NCBI GenBank assembly: GCA_029266635.1
Contig: JAQSWM010000004.1
Location: forward strand, 124,001-188,000
DNA from: Sphingobacteriaceae bacterium
Lineage (GTDB): Bacteria; Bacteroidota; Bacteroidia; Sphingobacteriales; Sphingobacteriaceae
DNA length: 64,000 nucleotides
Reading direction: 5' to 3'
Shown here: one piece after another, positions 28,999 to 41,648 of the stretch
How the letters are laid out: each line of letters begins with the position of its first letter
Numbering within the stretch: the first letter of the stretch is position 1
Position numbers and translations under genes: made by a program
The notes under the pieces: generated by a model
Database searches by the model: none
What the model saw: the letters and a program-made list of their open reading frames with translations, nothing else
Told to the model about the DNA's origin: nothing

Positions 28999-30348
28999 AT
29001 GCAATCCTTCGAGCTTGATAAAACCGACATTCAGCGCATTAAACAAGCGCTTGATGGAGATGAGGAAGATTTAAAATCCTTATTATCAGAATATCACGCC
29101 TCAGAAATTGCAATCCTGTTCGAAAGCCTTCCCCTTGAGGCCCGCGAACGCATTATCGATATCCTGCCCACAGAAGTTGCTTCCGAAGTAATTTCCGAGA
29201 TGGATGCAGAGATTGAGCCGGGAAAACTGCTCGAAAACCTGCATCCTGAAAAGCGCTCCGAAATTATGGAGGAGCTCGACTATGACGATGCCACCGACAT
29301 CATCAGCCAGCTTCCCGAAGAACGCCAGAACGCCATCCTCGAAGAGCTTGATGAAGAAGACGCCACCCAGATCCGCAACCTCTTAACCTACGAGGAAGAT
29401 ACTGCGGGCGGTTTGATGAACACCCAGATCATCAGCGTAAACCAAAATTTCACAAAAAAGGAAGCGCTTGATGAAGTGATCCGGCAGTCTGAAGAGATTG
29501 AGGAGTTCTATACCATCATGGTGACCGACGACGAAAATCACCTGATGGGGATTGTGTCGCTGAAAGACATCATCAAAGCCAAATACACGGTCCGCATCAG
29601 CGAACTGGTCAATTCCGACTATGTTTTCGTAAAAGCAGAAACCGACCAGGAAGAAGTTGCCAAGCTCATTTCCCAATACAACCTCACCAGCATCCCGGTT
29701 GTGGATGATGAAATGCACCTGCTCGGCCGCATCACCTTCGACGACGTGATCGACGTACTGGAAGAAGAAAACACCGAAGACATTCTGAAGATTTCCGGGG
29801 TATCCGAAGACGAAGAGCTCTCCGGTAACTGGGTGGAAGCGGTAAAGAGCCGTCTGCCCTGGCTGGTGCTCAACCTCGGCACCGCATTCCTGGCTTCGTC
29901 GGTCATCAGGCACTTCAGCAAAACAACCGATGCCATTCCCGTGCTCACGGCCTACATGACCATCATTGCGGGGATGGGAGGGAACGCCGCCACACAGTCG
30001 CTGGCCGTAACGGTGCGCCGTATCTCACTGAACGATCTTACCGATAATCAGGCATACCGCACTGTGCTCAAGGAGTTTACCGTAGGTTTGGCCAATGGTG
30101 CCGCAAACGGTTTTATTGTGTTCCTTTTCGCCCTGCTTTACGATGCAAACCTCATGCTCGGGGTAGTGATCTTCACAGCCATGATCGGCAACCTTATCAT
30201 TGCAGGTATTGCAGGCTCAGCAATTCCCCTGGTTTTGAAGCGGGTAGGCATAGACCCCGCCATCGCGTCATCCATCATCATCACCACCTTTACAGACGTG
30301 TTCGGGTTCTTCATCCTCCTGGGATTGGCGAGCAAGCTGATGTTGTAA
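28999..30348 (+). CDS. mgtE: Magnesium transporter MgtE
   Basis: A 449-residue Mg2+ channel. Residues 1-130 are the acidic superhelical N domain (repeated LPEERQNAILEELDEED-type units). Residues 130-255 are two CBS domains (ITVDD-like, IPVVDDEMHLLGRITFDDVIDVLEEE). Residues about 280-449 hold five transmembrane helices with the pore segment GMGGNAATQSLAVTVRRI. The cytosolic domains close the pore when Mg2+ is high. The gene borders the repeat-rich accessory region that begins right after its stop. Confidence 0.95.
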   Translation: MQSFELDKTDIQRIKQALDGDEEDLKSLLSEYHASEIAILFESLPLEARERIIDILPTEVASEVISEMDAEIEPGKLLENLHPEKRSEIMEELDYDDATDIISQLPEERQNAILEELDEEDATQIRNLLTYEEDTAGGLMNTQIISVNQNFTKKEALDEVIRQSEEIEEFYTIMVTDDENHLMGIVSLKDIIKAKYTVRISELVNSDYVFVKAETDQEEVAKLISQYNLTSIPVVDDEMHLLGRITFDDVIDVLEEENTEDILKISGVSEDEELSGNWVEAVKSRLPWLVLNLGTAFLASSVIRHFSKTTDAIPVLTAYMTIIAGMGGNAATQSLAVTVRRISLNDLTDNQAYRTVLKEFTVGLANGAANGFIVFLFALLYDANLMLGVVIFTAMIGNLIIAGIAGSAIPLVLKRVGIDPAIASSIIITTFTDVFGFFILLGLASKLML

Positions 30349-30671: not shown

Positions 30672-30884
30672 GGGTAGTGCTGGAAGGGAGAGAGAGTGCC
30701 ACGGCCGTGCTTTGTTTAAGCTCCATGTCATCCCGAACCGCTTTTGGGCGGGAGGGAACCTGGTGATGGTAAAGACTAAGGTCCTTCGTCGTGCCTCCTC
30801 AGGATGACAGGGTGCTTAGCGGCAGTGCTCTAACGCGGAGATTTCTCCTCGTGCCTCGTTCGAAACGACGCTGAAGAAGAGAGG
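30672..30884. repeat. 213-bp direct repeat, copy 1
   Basis: It is nearly identical to the copy at 31061-31273 (5 differences in 213 positions by eye, no gaps; offset 389 bp). Inside lie opposed modules: one of the GTCATCCTGAG...GAAGGACCT type (about 30727-30810) and one of the CGTTTCGAACGAG...GAGAAATCT type (about 30835-30872), both read on the minus strand. These are building blocks of dispersed intergenic repeats in Bacteroidota. No coding potential. Confidence 0.88.
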
Positions 30885-31060: not shown

Positions 31061-31273
31061 GGGTAGTGCTGGAAGGGAGAGAGAGTGCCACGGCCGTGCT
31101 TTGTTTAAGCTCCATGTCATCCCGAACTGCTTTTGGGCGGGAGGGAACCTGGTGATGGTACGGACTAAGGTCCTTCGTCGTGCCTCCTCAGGATGACAGG
31201 GTGCTTAGCGGTAGTGCTCTAACGCGGAGATTTCTCCTCGTGCCTCGTTCGAAATGACGCTGAAGAAGAGAGG
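31061..31273. repeat. 213-bp direct repeat, copy 2
   Basis: Second copy of the element at 30672-30884, same orientation. The 176-bp spacer between the copies is unrelated to them and contains a perfect palindrome aatgaatattcatt (30910-30923) and a small hairpin (cggagtttagaaactccg, about 31008-31025). The rest of the 30349-31340 gap contains more fragments of the same repeat types and no gene that I can support. Confidence 0.88.
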
Positions 31274-32020: not shown

Positions 32021-32110
32021 AATTATAGAGATTTAAGTGTCGCCCGCGGGTCCTTCCCGAAAGCATAGATGGAAGGTAGAGCTAACAAATAGCATCCTCC
32101 AAATGGCCTC

Positions 32111-32250
32111 GGGTACAAAACGGTACAGAACGGTACAAAGCGGTACAAAAAGGTACAAATAGTTATAAATAGTTACAAAACGGTACGGAACGGTACAAAG
32201 CGGTACAATGTGGTACAGAACGGTACAAAGCGGTACAGAATGGTACGGTT
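32111..32250. repeat. 10-bp tandem array (14 units of CGGTACAAAR)
   Basis: Fourteen consecutive 10-bp units, consensus CGGTACAAAG, run without gaps; units 6 and 7 are the most diverged (agttataaat, agttacaaaa). Each unit has the GTAC palindrome plus a short A-run, so the period is close to one DNA helical turn. Read on the minus strand it gives a meaningless VPLCTVLYRF-type peptide repeat. Confidence 0.9.
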
Positions 32251-32309
32251 TTAACTTGATAATGCCCGGAAGCGGTAAAGAATGAGCTGAAACTCTGAAT
32301 ACAAGCCCA

Positions 32310-32540
32310 ATTTCTAAGTACGAAACGCCGGTTTCGTAATTCACAATTGCGATTTCTAAGTACGAAACGCCGGTTTCGTAATTCACAATTGCGATTTCGT
32401 AATTCGAAATGAGGATTTCTAAACTCGAAATTGCAATTTCTAAACTCGAAATTGCGATTTCGTAATTCACAATTGGCATTTCGTAATTCGAAATGAGGAT
32501 TTCGTAATTCGAAATTGCGATTTCTAAACTCGAAATTGGA
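32310..32540. repeat. 21-bp tandem array (11 units)
   Basis: Eleven gap-free 21-bp units of two kinds, ATTTCTAAacTCGAAATTGCG and ATTTCGTAATTCgaAATTGCG. Where units meet, CGAAATTGCGATTTCG forms an inverted repeat, so the array can form a chain of small hairpins. The minus strand stays open through the array as a seven-residue repeat (EIAISSL / EIAIVNY). I treat this as repeat DNA rather than a gene. Confidence 0.9.
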
Positions 32541-34054: not shown

Positions 34055-34231
34055 ATGGCTACTAACGGAGAGCCCGGCGATAACCGCCGACACAGAGCAG
34101 TAAAAGACCGCTCCCAAACGTTCAACCCGCTTACAGAACAATGGGTAAAAAGAGATGCTGATTCAGGCAAGTTTATGGATGTGAAACAAGACGGGACACC
34201 ATTCAAGGGTGTTAGAAAGGAGGGGAAATAA
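34055..34231 (+). CDS. Small basic protein heading the TIR operon
   Basis: A 58-residue protein (ATG at 34055) with MATNGEPGDNRRH at the start and FMDVKQDGTPFKGVRKEGK at the end, low in hydrophobic residues and basic. Its stop overlaps the next ATG (TAATG), so it is translationally coupled to the TIR gene, and its end contains the next gene's strong ribosome binding site. I recall similar 55-60 residue proteins beside TIR genes in other bacteria but cannot verify this. Function unknown; a partner or guard peptide of the system is possible. Confidence 0.7.
   Translation: MATNGEPGDNRRHRAVKDRSQTFNPLTEQWVKRDADSGKFMDVKQDGTPFKGVRKEGK
34217..34223 (+). promoter_or_regulatory. Strong Shine-Dalgarno site before the TIR gene
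   Basis: AAGGAGG lies 7 nt before the ATG at 34231, which is unusual in a Bacteroidota genome where most starts here lack such a site. It fixes the start and hints at foreign origin. Confidence 0.6.
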
Positions 34232-34809
34232 TGGCAATTTATACAAAGTCATATCTAGATAATTTATATGCTCAGCGCTCTGGGTCTATTAATGAATCTA
34301 TACGTACTAAAACCTTCTCAGCGTCACCGCGTAATGAAACTTTTGACATTTTTCTATCGCATAGCTATTTGGACCGGCAGACCGTTGGAGGGTTATATCT
34401 CGAATTAACGAACAAGGGCTATAAGGTGTATGTGGACTGGATTACTGATCCTCAATTAGATAGAAATCACGTAACTAAGGCAACTGCCGAACTCATCCGG
34501 TCGCGTATGAAAAGCTCAAAAACTTTGTTATTAGCAATATCTGAAAATGCGGCGTTATCTAAATGGATGCCTTGGGAACTTGGTTATGTGGATGGGAATA
34601 CCAGTAAATGCGCAATTATCCCAGTTTCAGTAAATAATATCCATAGCTACACATTCAATAGGACAGAATACCTTTTGTTATATCCTTTTGTTAAAAGAGA
34701 CTCTGGTCAAAGCATCTACGTAGCCGAAGACAATTATACGTATGTTCCCTTCTCCACTTGGTTGAGGGAAAACTCCTCACCTTATTCACACATTAATCCT
34801 ATTCTATGA
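34231..34809 (+). CDS. TIR-domain protein (first of three)
   Basis: A 192-residue cytoplasmic protein. An N-terminal leader of about 35 residues (YLDNLYAQRSGSINESIRTK) precedes a TIR domain: strand A FDIFLSHSYLD (38-48), YKVYVDWITDPQLDRNHVT, TLLLAISENAALSKWMPWELGYVDG. E116 in the WELG segment sits where the catalytic glutamate of NAD-cleaving TIR domains is found. It has no membrane segment. Its stop overlaps a short caspase-like frame (ATGA). It belongs to an AT-rich operon with two more TIR-like proteins, a TPR sensor and a SLATT protein, and probably hydrolyses or cyclises NAD+. Confidence 0.85.
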   Translation: MAIYTKSYLDNLYAQRSGSINESIRTKTFSASPRNETFDIFLSHSYLDRQTVGGLYLELTNKGYKVYVDWITDPQLDRNHVTKATAELIRSRMKSSKTLLLAISENAALSKWMPWELGYVDGNTSKCAIIPVSVNNIHSYTFNRTEYLLLYPFVKRDSGQSIYVAEDNYTYVPFSTWLRENSSPYSHINPIL

Positions 34810-34934
34810 GAAAAGCACTTAGTATGGCAATTAATGATTATGCACCTGGCGCTTCCATTGGTTATGTAAATGATGCCACTAACATCGGGGATAGGCTAAA
34901 GGAACGAGGTTACATACCGCACCAAACTTATTAG
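34806..34934 (+). pseudogene. Truncated caspase-like (C14) N-terminus
   Basis: A 42-codon frame starts at ATGA overlapping the TIR stop. KALSMAINDYAPGASIGYVNDATNIGDRLKERGY follows the pattern of the first strand and helix of bacterial caspase-like peptidases (KALxxGINxYxxxxLxGCVNDAxxxxxxLxxxGY). The His/Cys catalytic parts are missing because the frame stops at 34934. It may be the remnant of a fourth effector, or a genuine tiny protein. The next gene begins 7 nt later. Confidence 0.4.
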
Positions 34935-34941
34935 ACACGAA

Positions 34942-36174
34942 ATGAAAAAGAAAATCTGTTTTGTAATTATGGGTTTTGGCAAGAAGTCTGATCCTTCAAC
35001 CGGAAGAACACTTGATTTAGATAAGACCTACGATAATATAATAGCACCTGCCGTGCGAGATGCGGGGCTAGAGTGTGTTAGAGGAGATGAAATTCAGGAT
35101 TCTGGCTTAATTGACAAAAGCATGTATGCGTTGCTAATGTATGCTGACCTAGTGATTGCAGACATCTCGACTTATAATCCTAATGCGATATACGAACTTG
35201 GCATTAGGCATGCGGTGAGACCATATTCAACAATAATCATTAAAGAAAAGCAAGGAAAAATACCATTTGATATTGACCATAGTCGTATTTTCCACTATGA
35301 TCACATGGGCGATGATATCGGTGCTACTGAAGCTGACAGATGTAGAAGTGAGCTGCGATTATTGATTGCCAATATAATCGAAAGTTCAAACACCGATAGC
35401 CCCCTGTACGAGTTCATTCGCGACTTAATTCCGCCTTCATTGCCGGAAGAAGAGTATATAGCATTGATTGAGAAACTAGCAAGAGAAGAAAAGGCCATTT
35501 TTGCTATGAGACAGAACGCTTTACAGTTTATGGATCAGAAAAACTTTGTGGAGGCAGAAAGAAGTTGGCGCAAGTTATCGGAAATTGTTGAGAACGAGCC
35601 ATATTTTGTTCAACAGCAGGCCCTCTGCAAATATAAAAGCGCCGAACCTTCCGCGGGCCTGGCCTTGCAAGACGCCCTAGTTATTATAAACAAACTTGAT
35701 CCAGATGGGGATACCACCGATCCAGAAACCCTTGGGATTACAGGGGCGATTTATAAAAATTTATATAGACTTAATGGAGACTTAGAGTACTTGAACAGGG
35801 CTATAAAATACTACCAGAAATGCTATATAGTACGGAACGATTACTATACCGGGGAGAACTATGCACATTGTCTTGAATTAAAGGCTCAGGCTGTATCTAG
35901 AAAGGACGAGAAAACTTATCTAAAATTTGAAGCAGGACGAACACGTGAGAACATTACAAGTCACGTCTTGCAGCTATTAGAAAGTTCTGAACAAAGAGCA
36001 GATCAAAAATGGATGTATGCGACATTATCTAACTGCTTTTTGGCTTTGAATGACCCAGAAAAAGCAGAGGAGTTTGAGAACCAGTTTAAAGACTCGAAGC
36101 CTACAAAATGGGAACTAGAGACCTTCGAAACATCAAAACAAGAAATTATAAACAGTTATGGCAAGAAATTATAA
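34942..36174 (+). CDS. Deoxyribohydrolase-like / TPR sensor protein (TPR-S, MAP3K TRAF-binding-like)
   Basis: A 410-residue protein with two parts. Residues 1-125 are a Rossmann-like nucleoside deoxyribosyltransferase-type domain: ICFVIMGFGKKSDPSTGRTLDLDKTYDNII at the front, then DLVIADISTYNPNAIYELGIRHA with the D and E85 residues of that family. Residues about 165-400 are TPR-like helices (FVEAERSWRKLSEIVENEP, LEYLNRAIKYYQKCYIV, DPEKAEEFENQFKD). Published comparative genomics predicts that this TPR scaffold, shared with animal ASK kinases, binds NAD-derived messengers. Flanking TIR genes suit that reading. The end overlaps the next TIR gene by 17 nt. Confidence 0.82.
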   Translation: MKKKICFVIMGFGKKSDPSTGRTLDLDKTYDNIIAPAVRDAGLECVRGDEIQDSGLIDKSMYALLMYADLVIADISTYNPNAIYELGIRHAVRPYSTIIIKEKQGKIPFDIDHSRIFHYDHMGDDIGATEADRCRSELRLLIANIIESSNTDSPLYEFIRDLIPPSLPEEEYIALIEKLAREEKAIFAMRQNALQFMDQKNFVEAERSWRKLSEIVENEPYFVQQQALCKYKSAEPSAGLALQDALVIINKLDPDGDTTDPETLGITGAIYKNLYRLNGDLEYLNRAIKYYQKCYIVRNDYYTGENYAHCLELKAQAVSRKDEKTYLKFEAGRTRENITSHVLQLLESSEQRADQKWMYATLSNCFLALNDPEKAEEFENQFKDSKPTKWELETFETSKQEIINSYGKKL

Positions 36175-36583
36175 AATATTTGTTAGCCATTCTTGGGCCT
36201 ACAACCAGGATTTACGGAACCTGCAAAATCTTTTAGAAAACCGCGGTTACTTTAAGGTTGAATTTCAGGAATCAACACCCAATAATCCGATTGATTCCGA
36301 GAACAGTGCCTATATAAAAAGAAGGTTAAAAGAGAAAATAGACGCTTCTGACATTGTTCTGGGGATTGCAGGCATCTATGCCAGCTATAGTGATTGGATA
36401 GCCTGGGAATTAGCCACTGCACAGATTTTAAGTGTTCCGGTTATAGGGGTGATTCCCCGAGGGCAAGAAAGAATCTCCTCAGTGGTAAACAAGTATTCTT
36501 TAATCAATGTACGGTGGAACACGGAAAGCATAGTAGATGCAATCCGTGCGTACGCTAAAGGTTCAAAAGCATGGTATCAATAA
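36158..36583 (+). CDS. TIR-like protein, ThsB/DUF1863 type (second)
   Basis: A 141-residue single-domain protein. NYKIFVSHSW (residues 4-13) is the first strand and loop, FKVEFQESTPNNPIDSENSAYIKRRLKEKI the following helix region, and SDIVLGIAGIYASYSDWIAWELATA the region with the likely catalytic glutamate E84. It matches the TIR-like DUF1863 (PF08937) family, which includes ThsB, the signal-making protein of Thoeris. The ATG at 36158 lies within the end of the TPR gene (17-nt overlap), so translation is coupled. Confidence 0.85.
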   Translation: MARNYKIFVSHSWAYNQDLRNLQNLLENRGYFKVEFQESTPNNPIDSENSAYIKRRLKEKIDASDIVLGIAGIYASYSDWIAWELATAQILSVPVIGVIPRGQERISSVVNKYSLINVRWNTESIVDAIRAYAKGSKAWYQ

Positions 36584-36605
36584 GAACTATCAAACTAAAA
36601 AAATT

Positions 36606-37190
36606 ATGGCGAGAAAATGTTTCATCTCTTTTAAAACTGAGGATTTAGCTTTTAAGAAAGCTATTCAGTCCCATGACGAACTTGATATTGTAGACAAATC
36701 TTTGGATGAGCCGATAGAATCTGACAATGAAGAATACATAATGCGCAAAATTCGTGAAGATTATTTGTCCGATAGTACTGTTACTATTCACTTGATTGGG
36801 AAGTACAGCGCTGAAAGCTTAGGCAAGGAGGAACAACGTTACATTAAACGTGAGTTACAGGCTTCATTATATCATGGAGTCGGAAATACCCAGAATGGAA
36901 TACTTGGTGTTGTCTTACCTCAAATGACAGATAAGATATATCAAGGGAGTATTACGTGTACGAATTGCGGCTCTGTTCATACCTTGATTGCAATTAACGA
37001 TTATACTGTAGTTAAGGAGTTTAGTTATAACTATTACATTCCAAACGCGAAATGTGCCTGGTCTGAAAGTGATCGATTTTGTGTATTGGTGAAATGGGAT
37101 GACTTTATTAAAGACCCGAATAGCTATATTGAAATGGCCTTTCAAAAAAGATGTGAGCCAATCGCGGAAAAGACCAAAGTTAGACCCTAG
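36606..37190 (+). CDS. TIR-like protein, ThsB/DUF1863 type (third)
   Basis: A 194-residue protein. ARKCFISFKTEDLAFKKAI is the ThsB-like start, IHLIGKYSAESLGKEEQRYIKRELQASLYHG holds the candidate catalytic E83 in the RYIKREL segment, as RWVRYEI does in ThsB proteins. The C-terminal half has an added CTNCGSVH knuckle (C118, C121) that may bind a metal. I start at the ATG at 36606; the frame is open to 36537 but that would overlap the previous gene. Two different ThsB-like proteins in one operon suggest separate triggers. Confidence 0.85.
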   Translation: MARKCFISFKTEDLAFKKAIQSHDELDIVDKSLDEPIESDNEEYIMRKIREDYLSDSTVTIHLIGKYSAESLGKEEQRYIKRELQASLYHGVGNTQNGILGVVLPQMTDKIYQGSITCTNCGSVHTLIAINDYTVVKEFSYNYYIPNAKCAWSESDRFCVLVKWDDFIKDPNSYIEMAFQKRCEPIAEKTKVRP

Positions 37191-37198
37191 ACCAAGTT

Positions 37199-38080
37199 AT
37201 GAATATTGAAGAAAAAGATTTCCCCGGCTTATATCAAGCTGCTGATAAGGCATCCTTGGCAGCCCAAAAAAAATATTTTCAGAGCATCGGAGGCTACCTG
37301 GTCCTTTTAATATTAGCGGTCTTGTTCGCATATTTTTCTACAGGTAGAATCGAAGAAATAATAAAAATAATCAGTACTGTATTTTTCCTTTTAACCTTAT
37401 CAATCACTATTTGGTTGAAAATGTCGCGGCCAAACGATATTTGGTATAATGGAAGGGCGGTGGCTGAGTCCGTAAAAACCCGGGCTTGGAGATGGATGAT
37501 GGGGACGGACCCGTATGCAGAATCGGAAAACGCAGATATGATCAGAAAAAGATTTGTTGGAGATTTAAAACAAATATTAACTCAAAATAAAAGCCTGGTA
37601 CAAAAATTAGGAAAGTCTGCAAGTTTAGTAGATCCAATTACATCAAAAATGGTACAGGTCCGTAATATGGATTTAGATGGCAGATTTACATTCTATAAGG
37701 AAAACAGAATAATTGACCAGGCTAAATGGTATTCTAAGAAAGCCAAGTTAAACGAATATTACGCAACCCGATGGTTTTGGGTTTCGATAAGTCTACAAGT
37801 ATTAGCCATCCTGTCACTCTTATACAATATTAAAGAACCGCAAATAAATCTGCCTATAGAGGTCTATGCAGTTGCAGCCTCTTCTGTATTGTCTTGGATT
37901 CAATCAAAACAGTATAATGAGCTATCATCTTCTTATACATTAACTGCACACGAAATAATTCTGTTGAAAGGAGAGGTGGAAGAAATAAAAACCGAAAGTG
38001 ATTTTTCGGAATATGTTATTAATTGTGAAAATGCGTTTTCTCGGGAACATACACAATGGGCAGCCAAAAAGAGCGATTAA
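37199..38080 (+). CDS. Double SLATT-domain (DUF4231) membrane protein, predicted effector
   Basis: A 293-residue protein with two 2-TM modules: helices at about 29-47 and 53-74, and 192-210 and 216-235. After the first pair comes IWYNGRAVAESVKTRAWRWMMG, and the C-terminus has TLTAHEIILLKGEVEEI ... CENAFSREHTQWAAKK, both hallmark SLATT segments. SLATT proteins are predicted to be pore-forming effectors activated by nucleotide signals in CBASS-like systems. It is the last gene of the TIR operon, 8 nt after the third TIR-like gene. No SMODS cyclase is present, so activation must come from elsewhere in the operon. Confidence 0.87.
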   Translation: MNIEEKDFPGLYQAADKASLAAQKKYFQSIGGYLVLLILAVLFAYFSTGRIEEIIKIISTVFFLLTLSITIWLKMSRPNDIWYNGRAVAESVKTRAWRWMMGTDPYAESENADMIRKRFVGDLKQILTQNKSLVQKLGKSASLVDPITSKMVQVRNMDLDGRFTFYKENRIIDQAKWYSKKAKLNEYYATRWFWVSISLQVLAILSLLYNIKEPQINLPIEVYAVAASSVLSWIQSKQYNELSSSYTLTAHEIILLKGEVEEIKTESDFSEYVINCENAFSREHTQWAAKKSD

Positions 38081-38086
38081 AGTATA

Positions 38087-38239
38087 CTATTCCTCCGCCA
38101 CCATCCTCAACTCCGGATCCTTAATCTCATAAGATTTAACTTTTTGTTCAAACGCCTCCCTTAAAACACTTTGCAACAAAGCTTGTGCGTATTGGCGGCT
38201 TCGTTGTACCTGGGCTTCTAACTGGCTTTGCTGCGCCTT
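38087..38239 (-). pseudogene. C-terminal remnant of a type I restriction specificity subunit (HsdS)
   Basis: The last 50 codons of an HsdS-like gene remain: SQLEAQVQRSRQYAQALLQSVLREAF is the C-terminal conserved helix and KSYEIKDPELRMVAEE the tail usual in Bacteroidota HsdS proteins. The similarity stops at a perfect palindrome (38238-38261) next to the RAYT gene, so the upstream part was lost or replaced there. It points to a former type I restriction locus at this site. Confidence 0.6.
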
Positions 38240-38261
38240 TGTTGGTGTTGTCACCAACAAA
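38238..38261. repeat. REP-like palindrome, downstream of the RAYT gene
   Basis: TTTGTTGGTG-TTGT-CACCAACAAA, a perfect 10-bp inverted repeat. It lies 3 nt after the end of the RAYT gene. Confidence 0.85.
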
Positions 38262-38264
38262 CCG

Positions 38265-38789
38265 CTACCCGTTATAATGCGTGAGCAAATTAAATTCGTC
38301 AAAACCATCCCAATAAAAGCGGGCTGAGGAGTACCTGTATTCTTCGGGCAGCTTCGCCAAATTCCATTTATCCTGCAAGGGGTTATTATGGATATATTCC
38401 AGTTTTTGCATGAATATTTCATCGCTCCACAGGTCGATACTTAAAGAGTTTCGTTTCCAGAACTGATATTTCCTGTCGGCGGCATTTACAAGAAAGCCGT
38501 GGAGTAAGGTATTTCCTGTATCCATTAGCTTGAACTTGATTTGCTGAGAAGTGAATTTAAGGAATCGCATTTGCACGGTTTCTTTTTTAAACCCGTCCTG
38601 GATTTGCCAGATGATGTGGATGTGATTCGGCATAATCACATAGCTGTAAATAACAATGCTTCCTTCGTTTTTTAAAAACCGGAGGCTTTTGATGATAATG
38701 GCTTTGTGTTCATCTTCTTTTAACAAATGCTTCCAATCAAAAATGGTGGCGGTGAAAAACTGAGGATGATAGCAGTAGTTAATTGGCAC
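38265..38789 (-). mobile_element. RAYT (REP-associated tyrosine transposase, Y1/IS200-like)
   Basis: A 174-residue Y1 transposase-family protein (PF01797). The HUH motif is in IMPNHIHIIWQ, and the catalytic tyrosine is in LEYIHNNPLQDKW, the signature of RAYT proteins. The gene is bracketed by GTTGGTG/CACCAAC palindromes on both sides (38238-38261 and 38814-38872), the classical REP/RAYT layout, and similar palindromes occur at 41625-41648. It probably mobilises or maintains these small repeats. It appears complete. Confidence 0.88.
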
Positions 38790-38810
38790 ATGTGAAGATA
38801 CGAGTTAAGA

Positions 38811-38880
38811 TGTCTTGTTGGTGATAACACCAACAAGGGCGAGGATGTCTTGTTGGTGACAACACCAACAAGGGCGAGGA
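38811..38880. repeat. Tandem pair of REP-like palindromes (2 x 35 bp)
   Basis: Two head-to-tail 35-bp units, each carrying CTTGTTGGTG-N4-CACCAACAAG (38814-38837 and 38849-38872) followed by ggcgagga; they differ only in the loop (ataa, acaa). They lie just upstream of the RAYT gene. Confidence 0.9.
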
Positions 38881-38943
38881 TAAAAGCGGATTTTAAATCC
38901 GCATCTGTTTGCGGGATGCGCAAGAGCTAACATCCCGAACTGC
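38881..38943. repeat. MITE-like palindromic element, copy 1
   Basis: taaaagcggattttaaatccgc followed by tttgcgggatgcgcaagagc and catcccgaac: two nested hairpins. The same arrangement is at 39321-39414 and 40342-40451. This copy lacks the left terminal repeat and abuts the REP pair. Confidence 0.75.
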
Positions 38944-39021: not shown

Positions 39022-39285
39022 ATGGCTAAGCGGTATAGATTCAGGAAGGTTTACTTCGTTTGCAGGGATAATAGCATCTTTTCAGATACACGGTTTGTTA
39101 ATTGTTTCAGGAGCGAAGCCCACGCCAGAGAACAGGCAATAGTTCAGCAACGGAATGCCTTAGAAAATTCCCAAATGCTATGGGAGAAGGATAAAGCCAT
39201 TCCCAAATTCAAAGCTCATGGCTTTTACCTGGTGCATGAAAGCCTGATTGATGAATTATTGAAAGGTTTTACGGAGGAAAAGTAA
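39022..39285 (+). CDS. Hypothetical protein between repeats
   Basis: An 87-residue basic soluble protein (ATG at 39022), MAKRYRFRKVYFVCRDNSIFSDTRFVNCF at the start and a helical second half (EAHAREQAIVQQRNALENSQMLWEKDK, LIDELLKGFTEEK). No membrane segment or known domain. The composition looks coding. It lies between copies 1 and 2 of the MITE-like element and might be a gene carried along with these repeats. Confidence 0.5.
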   Translation: MAKRYRFRKVYFVCRDNSIFSDTRFVNCFRSEAHAREQAIVQQRNALENSQMLWEKDKAIPKFKAHGFYLVHESLIDELLKGFTEEK

Positions 39286-39320: not shown

Positions 39321-39414
39321 CTGTTCGACATCTTTTAGCAGGGTGAAGATAAAAGCGGCTTTGAAATCCGCATCATCTGTTTGCGGGATGCGCAGGAGCT
39401 AAGATGCTGAACAG
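39321..39414. repeat. MITE-like palindromic element, copy 2
   Basis: A 94-bp element bounded by ctgttcgacatctt and its inverted copy aagatgctgaacag (13 of 14 pairs), with internal hairpins gcggctttgaaatccgc and tttgcgggatgc. Confidence 0.75.
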
Positions 39415-39483
39415 CCGACATAATACTTGCTCATGTCTGTGCGATGGATTAAATTTGAGTTATAGACCAAATATTTGATTGCT

Positions 39484-40451: not shown

Positions 40452-40512
40452 GATTCTATTTTAACTATGTTTGAAACTTGGAGTTTTTAACAAACGCAGA
40501 GCAAATAATCTG

Positions 40513-41439
40513 ATGAAAAAAATAGGAATTATTGGCTTGGGAAATATAGCTGAAAAAGCTTACCTGCCAGTTATAAGCCGCATATCCGGTTTCGAATTCC
40601 ACTTATGTACAAGAAACGAAGAACGCTTAAAAGAGATAAGCGCTTCTTATCGCTTTAGCAAAGTCCACAGTGACCTAGATTCATTAATTAAAGAAAAAAT
40701 TAATGGGGCATTCGTACACACCGCTTCAGAATCGCATTTCGATATCATTAAAAAACTGCTCGAAGCGGGCATTCATGTTTTTACAGACAAGCCTATCGCC
40801 ACAGAATATGAGCAGTCTCAGCAATTGGTAGAGCTTGCTGAATCACGCAATTTGCTTTTGATGGTAGGCTTTAACCGGCGTTTTGCCCCGGCTTATCAAT
40901 ATCTTAAGGAAACTCCGGAACCTATGCTAATCATCATGCAAAAGAACCGTGTTTTTTCGCCTGATGAAATACGGCGTTTTATACTTGATGATTTTATCCA
41001 TGTAGTTGACACGCTTCGGTATCTCTTTACTGTGCCCCTTGATAATTTGCTTATAAACGGGATAAAAAAGGAGGGGAAGCTGCATCAGGTGGTTATACAG
41101 TTTGTTTCTAAAACGGGTGCGGTGGCTATCGGGATTATGAACAGAGGCGGAAATGTAACAGAGGAGAAAGTTGAACTAATGAGCACGTCTGTGAAAGCAG
41201 TTGCGCTTAATTTATCGCAGTTGCATATTGAAAATCCTAATATTACTGGAACAGTGAGGGCGGACGACTGGGAGCCGACGCTTCATAAACGAGGTTTTGA
41301 ACAAATGGTCAGCTTTTTTTTAGAAGCTGTCGCCGAGAATAACATCCAGGCTTCCAATTCCAGAGATGCCTTGTTAACTCATCAGATCTGCGAGTGGATA
41401 ATAGAAAAACTTGAACAGCAACCGGAAGAAGTTGAATAA
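40513..41439 (+). CDS. Gfo/Idh/MocA-family oxidoreductase
   Basis: A 308-residue NAD(P)-dependent oxidoreductase. The N-terminal Rossmann domain has KKIGIIGLGNIAEKAYLPVISR (nucleotide binding) and VFTDKPIATEYEQSQQLVELAE, where DKPIA is the EKP-type motif with the catalytic lysine. The C-terminal domain begins after MVGFNRRFAPAYQYL. The start is the ATG at 40513; a TTG at 40471 extends the frame but lies inside the repeat region. Substrate unknown, probably a sugar or polyol. Confidence 0.88.
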   Translation: MKKIGIIGLGNIAEKAYLPVISRISGFEFHLCTRNEERLKEISASYRFSKVHSDLDSLIKEKINGAFVHTASESHFDIIKKLLEAGIHVFTDKPIATEYEQSQQLVELAESRNLLLMVGFNRRFAPAYQYLKETPEPMLIIMQKNRVFSPDEIRRFILDDFIHVVDTLRYLFTVPLDNLLINGIKKEGKLHQVVIQFVSKTGAVAIGIMNRGGNVTEEKVELMSTSVKAVALNLSQLHIENPNITGTVRADDWEPTLHKRGFEQMVSFFLEAVAENNIQASNSRDALLTHQICEWIIEKLEQQPEEVE

Positions 41440-41624: not shown

Positions 41625-41648
41625 GTTGTTGGTGGAGACACCAACAAC
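41625..41648. repeat. REP-like palindrome
   Basis: GTTGTTGGTG-GAGA-CACCAACAAC, a perfect 10-bp inverted repeat of the type flanking the RAYT gene 3 kb away. Confidence 0.85.

Follow-up and report, generated by a model that had tools for sequence, protein, structure and literature searches.

The window, which is the whole 64,000-nucleotide stretch of DNA that was analysed, carries an operon of TIR and SLATT genes on one strand and a RAYT gene, flanked by repeated extragenic palindromes (REPs), on the other, with the 3' end of an hsdS gene lying between them (Table 1). An earlier note on this DNA had described a palindrome beside the RAYT gene, and a palindrome of the form TTTGTTGGTG-TTGT-CACCAACAAA was indeed present at 38238-38261. 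The arrangement that the note had proposed, an hsdS gene truncated at a REP beside the RAYT gene and next to a TIR/SLATT defence operon, was also borne out. The open reading frame listed at 38087-38422 is not a gene, because the open frame runs through the palindrome and into the RAYT gene, which is read in another frame.

Table 1. Features of the locus, with coordinates in the window
Feature	Coordinates	Strand	Remarks
Five-gene TIR / TPR-S / TIR / TIR / SLATT operon	34231..38080	+	
hsdS remnant (last 48 codons and stop, type I restriction specificity subunit), by homology	38087..38233	-	71% amino acid identity to residues 472-519 of an intact HsdS (L010:4588-6147)
3' REP of the RAYT unit	38234..38261	-	hairpin 38238-38261 and outer tag GGCG 38234-38237; abuts the hsdS remnant
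RAYT gene, 174 aa, GTG start, open frame	38265..38789	-	motifs NHIH at 55, WQ at 61, YIHNNP at 132, SS at 154
Two tandem 35-base units, each with a 5'-side REP	38809..38878	+	inverted relative to the 3' REP

The minus strand from 38233 to 38087 translates to QQSQLEAQVQRSRQYAQALLQSVLREAFEQKVKSYEIKDPELRMVAEE, followed by a stop codon. When the contigs of an 84,980-species collection were scanned with the back-translated 57-codon frame, a search whose reach extends to close relatives only, a single locus was found, in Ginsengibacter hankyongi (NZ_VYQF01000001.1; L010). The match spanned query residues 10-57 with 71% identity (E 3e-18 among the candidates) and coincided with the exact C-terminus of a 519-aa open reading frame, down to the last codon; at the DNA level, 107 of 146 bases were identical. 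The Ginsengibacter protein contained two stretches of the Pfam family Methylase_S (PF01420, 7e-24), matched the S subunits 1yf2 and 7bst in the PDB, and its gene follows those for HsdM (N6_Mtase, HsdM_N) and HsdR (HSDR_N, EcoEI_R_C). The tail is thus HsdS as judged by homology. The HsdS identity given in the earlier note was therefore correct, while its length of 50 codons was not, since the homologous part comprises 48 codons and the stop.

The C-terminus of the Ginsengibacter HsdS, used in turn as the query, matched sequences in 32 of 395 genomes of the class, including the source genome, and the window tail ranked first. Thirty loci were fetched and 24 were re-aligned at E 0.01. In the 23 loci other than the window, the alignment began at query positions 4-12, at or before a PLPPLAEQ motif, with the exception of L071, where it began one residue inside the motif. 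In contrast, the alignment to the window tail opened only at position 31, which indicates that this copy is truncated. The remnant has lost its own start and probably its function, and a Pfam search found no match to the target-recognition domain (PF01420) in the tail. The only match to the tail in the source genome and 59 relatives was the tail itself; viral contigs gave no match and plasmids a single spurious one (E 9).

By the earlier note's own criterion, a profile search of these codons without HsdS similarity would count against it. Such searches with Pfam, NCBIfam and PADLOC were negative, and the identification came from the search of genome contigs instead. The only match was ApoO (E 0.075) in Pfam and pAgo (E 0.009) in PADLOC, NCBIfam returned none, and a search of PDB sequences gave Cas9 (E 5) alone. 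In the intact Ginsengibacter HsdS the best Methylase_S stretch stops at residue 482, whereas the tail corresponds to residues 472-519; the overlap is just 11 residues, which accounts for the miss in Pfam. The best NCBIfam match on the intact protein covered residues 26-194. The PADLOC HsdS models extend to residues 496-513 of the intact protein, yet did not match the tail alone, so that part of the negative result must be due to shortness, and a profile search is weak on so short a piece. A short remnant that profile libraries miss can nevertheless betray a restriction locus that has since been lost.

Beyond the tail, the window showed no similarity to HsdR, HsdM or HsdS with an E value below 0.5 in a search with two query proteins for HsdM and two for HsdR; one HsdM query was a fused HsdM-HsdS. 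By this measure of similarity, the tail has no adjacent hsdM and hsdR in the window. Two matches to PF01420 above the cut-off were found in the source genome, both in another gene (C7:73659-74726), and a genome search with the Ginsengibacter HsdM detected only a fused gene with 31% identity. The other type I locus found in the genome is this fused HsdM-HsdS with its own HsdR (C7:73.5-78.6 kb), and it is not the source of the window tail. The assembly is 95.8% complete, and the genome-wide hsd search was made with HsdM and PF01420.

The RAYT protein scored 72.8 bits (E 2.6e-20) with the NCBIfam model REP_Tyr_transpos (NF047646), under the curated cut-off of 80, and E 0.015 with Pfam Y1_Tnp, also under the cut-off; because the REP_Tyr_transpos score misses its cut-off, the protein was placed by its motifs and by the anatomy of the unit. 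The HUH and tyrosine motifs NH[LIV]H, WQ and YIH[QN]NP, as listed in the available text of PMC6006769, are all present. The 5'-side REP hairpins lie at 38815-38836 and 38850-38871, each followed by GGGCG, so that the gene is flanked by inverted REPs, of which a 27-base pair (38234-38260 and 38850-38876) is 96% complementary. RAYT matches were found at E 1e-10 in at least 117 of 251 genomes of the family. The 11 best matches elsewhere, among the matches listed, were 58-73% identical, ten of them in genus g14 of the family and one in g12. In these closest relatives (L015-L025, again among the matches listed), the hairpin was present on both sides of the gene in L015-L024, with one mismatch in the nearest upstream copy of L020 and a diverged nearest downstream copy in L022, while L025 had imperfect copies only. 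Pieces of a RAYT C-terminus were also seen past the REP, downstream of the RAYT gene, in L024 and L021, in L024 straight after the GGCG tag, a pattern that tandem duplications broken at the REP edge would give.

The REP strand folded into a 10-bp hairpin (-13.6 kcal/mol for a 37-base piece, z -4.8). The 9-base arms of this palindrome, with 1-6 loop bases between them, were counted four times in the window, whereas 100 shuffled sequences gave a mean of 0.00. The fourth hairpin, at 41626-41647, has the same stem with the loop GAGA and is without an NGGC tag. In the source genome the tagged REP occurred in three copies with at most two mismatches, all at the RAYT gene of the window. The hairpin alone, at the same tolerance, had ten sites, seven of them elsewhere: the one at 41626 in the window, three on contig C12, which surround another RAYT match, and three on C13.

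The bases that follow the hairpin were compared in two sets of REPs. Near the 11 closest RAYT genes (49 REP matches at 11 loci, which are not independent because some are tandem copies inside one locus) positions +2 to +4 were G in 42/49, G in 43/49 and C in 34/49. The second set was taken from 20 stretches with inverted REP pairs, ten from each of two genomes, one without a close RAYT (G094) and one with it (G208); it comprised 42 REPs, 41 of them with a readable outer flank. The hairpin in these 41 was followed by N-G-G-C, with G in 40, G in 40 and C in 41, frequencies that are biased upward because the pairs were chosen by the tag pattern with up to two mismatches. Position +5 was G in 28 of the 41 and conservation then dropped, save for a preference for A at +7 (34/41) and +8 (33/41); this later drop is unbiased. 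The corresponding sequence in the window is A-GGC-G-CAGCAAAGCC, in which the near-invariant part stops at +4 and the hsdS homology starts from +5 or +6; the bases at +7 and +8 are A and G, against an outer consensus that prefers A at both.

The GGCG between the hairpin and the coding remnant is consequently not a spacer. In the relatives it is the conserved outer edge of the REP (hairpin-NGGC), so that the hsdS homology begins at the edge of the element. The comparison places the last 48 codons of the hsdS gene directly against the outer edge of the 3' REP, with zero intervening bases. The earlier note had put the two within two bases of each other; the distance from the palindrome is four bases, and these belong to the REP tag.

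The junction is probably best explained as a gene fossil bordering a REPtron: the RAYT-REP unit would have been joined into hsdS at the REP edge, with loss of the remaining hsd operon. RAYT enzymes are HUH nucleases, and in the available parts of PMC8266576 and PMC6006769 those that have been studied are described as cutting single-stranded REP DNA beside the hairpin and transferring the strand in vitro; a tetranucleotide on the 5' side of the hairpin is believed to direct the cut. Read on the opposite strand, the tag becomes GCCN on the 5' side of the hairpin, where other REPs have GTAG. The RAYT, as an HUH single-strand endonuclease, would have linked the unit's 3' end to an hsdS gene by one of two routes, a) insertion into hsdS with a later deletion on the 5' side or b) a one-ended join that itself deleted the upstream part, and the remaining hsd operon would have been deleted. 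The joining is an inference, as the 5' half of hsdS is missing: none was found in the window across the RAYT unit, and a clean insertion was thus not seen. The account rests on one junction in one genome.

Its main rival, which we consider about half as probable, is an ordinary illegitimate deletion of the hsd operon, the endpoint of which was set by the REP hairpin through polymerase slippage or hairpin cleavage, with no part played by RAYT activity. The hairpin is stable, slippage there would yield a similar junction, and the REPs look prone to rearrangement, since tandem repeats and RAYT fragments adjoin the REP edges in some relatives (L024 and L021, for example). The position of the junction tells against such a deletion, since it lies at the conserved edge of the tag and not in the stem or loop, and the endpoint of a deletion need not respect the GGC tag.

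The operon on the other side of the remnant encodes three TIR proteins, one ThsB-like and two of the ThsB type, together with a TPR-S protein and a membrane protein with a double SLATT. It is likely to be an anti-phage system that is based on TIR and has a membrane effector. All five genes occur in the same order at another locus (L085 in genome G060), while the closest SLATT protein (L084 in G494, 61% identical) is accompanied by one TIR gene only. The last stop codon of the operon and that of the hsdS remnant are convergent and just 6 bases apart. This proximity would suit a different origin of the remnant, namely that an imported defence island brought in the operon together with the hsdS 3' end, convergent to it and cut off at or before import. 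The base composition bears on this in two ways: the operon, with 38.5% GC, is richer in AT than four flanking stretches (44.8-50.7% GC), as suits recent import, but the remnant, at 45.6%, is host-like, though it has only 147 bases. Moreover, no hsd match was found at L085 or at three other SLATT loci, in stretches that were short (7-16 kb). An arrival together is on these grounds unlikely. The GC content mildly suggests that the TIR operon was the later arrival, and the 147-base remnant is too short to carry that conclusion.

Other repeats were seen around the locus. A direct repeat of about 75 bases (38871-38943 and 39340-39415), made up of two blocks that are 88-89% identical with a small offset, holds the palindromes GCGGATTTTAAATCCGC and CGGGATG..CATCCCG and brackets an 87-aa open reading frame (39022-39285) that has no Pfam match. 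Downstream of an mgtE-like gene (28999-30348) there is a 213-base direct repeat (30672-30884 and 31061-31273, 98% identical), and the arrays at 32092-32266 and 32266-32536 consist of 10-base (GGTACAAAAC-like) and 21-base units. An open reading frame elsewhere in the source genome (L008, 424-1077, minus strand) looks repetitive too.

The earlier note had taken the site for a swapping point at which defence genes replace one another. Here the type I remnant does adjoin a TIR operon of five genes and a RAYT unit, but in one genome only. Homologs of the oxidoreductase at 40.5 kb (40471-41439) were found in 14 of 151 genomes, including the source, and loci were fetched from 10 of the other 13. The direct neighbours of this gene in the window were absent from all ten. 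Other window genes were matched at five of them: at L120 this was a gene from 6.1 kb, and at L122, L123, L126 and L127 it was a pair of genes (3.7-5.9 kb) with 27-35% identity. With no hsd genes found near the best 29 related RAYT genes either, a recurrent exchange of defence loci at this site appears improbable.

That last result concerns 29 RAYT places outside the window, the best related ones among the matches listed, where no hsdR, hsdM or hsdS was found at E 1e-4. Forty stretches were covered, with up to about 1.5 kb per side for all 29 places and, in addition, up to about 9 kb per side for the 11 closest, one of them shortened by a contig end. The same searches gave hsd matches at 29 of 29 control HsdS loci, which test the reach of the queries and are not a blind sample, because they had been found with the HsdS C-terminus query; the HsdM or HsdR queries reached only 16 of the 29. 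For these 29 RAYT places, an association of RAYTs with hsd loci was accordingly rejected. A functional partnership of this RAYT group with hsd loci, in hsdS shuffling for example, has a single adjacency, the one described here, in its favour and is extremely improbable. A literature search on RAYT with hsdS returned nothing on the subject, as judged by titles and the starts of abstracts.

Tagged REPs were not confined to the neighbourhood of RAYT genes. They were present in 12 of 12 genomes with a close RAYT and in 8 of 12 picked as being without one, and reached up to 45 copies per genome in G208, with 31 in G094 despite its having no close RAYT. The stretches L158-L177 from these two genomes contain REPIN-like pairs of inverted REPs, 50-67 bases from start to start, with the NGGC tags pointing outward and two distinct inner arms. 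Literature on REPIN with RAYT and Bacteroidetes exists, none was found on REPIN with Mucilaginibacter, and Bacteroidota REPs that lack GTAG and form REPIN-like pairs may be little described.

A broader proposal, which we put forward tentatively and hold to be doubtful, is that RAYT units of subclass 2.6 in the Bacteroidota are still mobile, or able to join DNA as a whole. A GCC-type guide at the foot of the hairpin would replace GTAG, the units would join or insert exactly at the NGGC edge, they would spread REPIN-like pairs in some genomes, and they could inactivate defence genes, the hsdS scar being one such event. Against this, tagged REPs do not strictly follow a close RAYT, as the eight genomes mentioned above demonstrate. 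RAYTs are usually regarded as resident genes of vertical descent, with a mobility that is difficult to observe. A junction at the last base of a REP offers a concrete site for asking if DNA is cut and joined by a subclass 2.6 RAYT. The event is single and undated, comes from one genome, and leaves the picture of defence-island turnover unchanged.

Compared with known systems, the remnant shares its 48 residues with the C-terminus of HsdS (PF01420; 1yf2, 7bst), from which it differs in having no target-recognition domain, no start and no hsdM or hsdR partner. The RAYT gene between two inverted REPs has the same anatomy as the REPtron of PMC2817692, although the REPs described in the available part of that paper have heads of the form GT(A/G)G and usually number more than 100 per genome, and those of the window show neither property. 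The closest counterpart is RAYT/TnpA-REP subclass 2.6 (group 5, Bacteroidetes), as presented in the accessible text of PMC6006769. Both have the motifs NH[LIV]H, WQ, YIH[QN]NP and SS, a similar length (174 aa here, 179 aa there) and hairpins on both sides of the gene, and both are without a GT[AG]G tag. The REPs of that subclass are termed atypical there and are said to have weaker secondary structure, whereas the window REP forms a clean 10-bp stem, and the hairpins described here differ from them in bearing an outer NGGC tag, one of which abuts a truncated hsdS.
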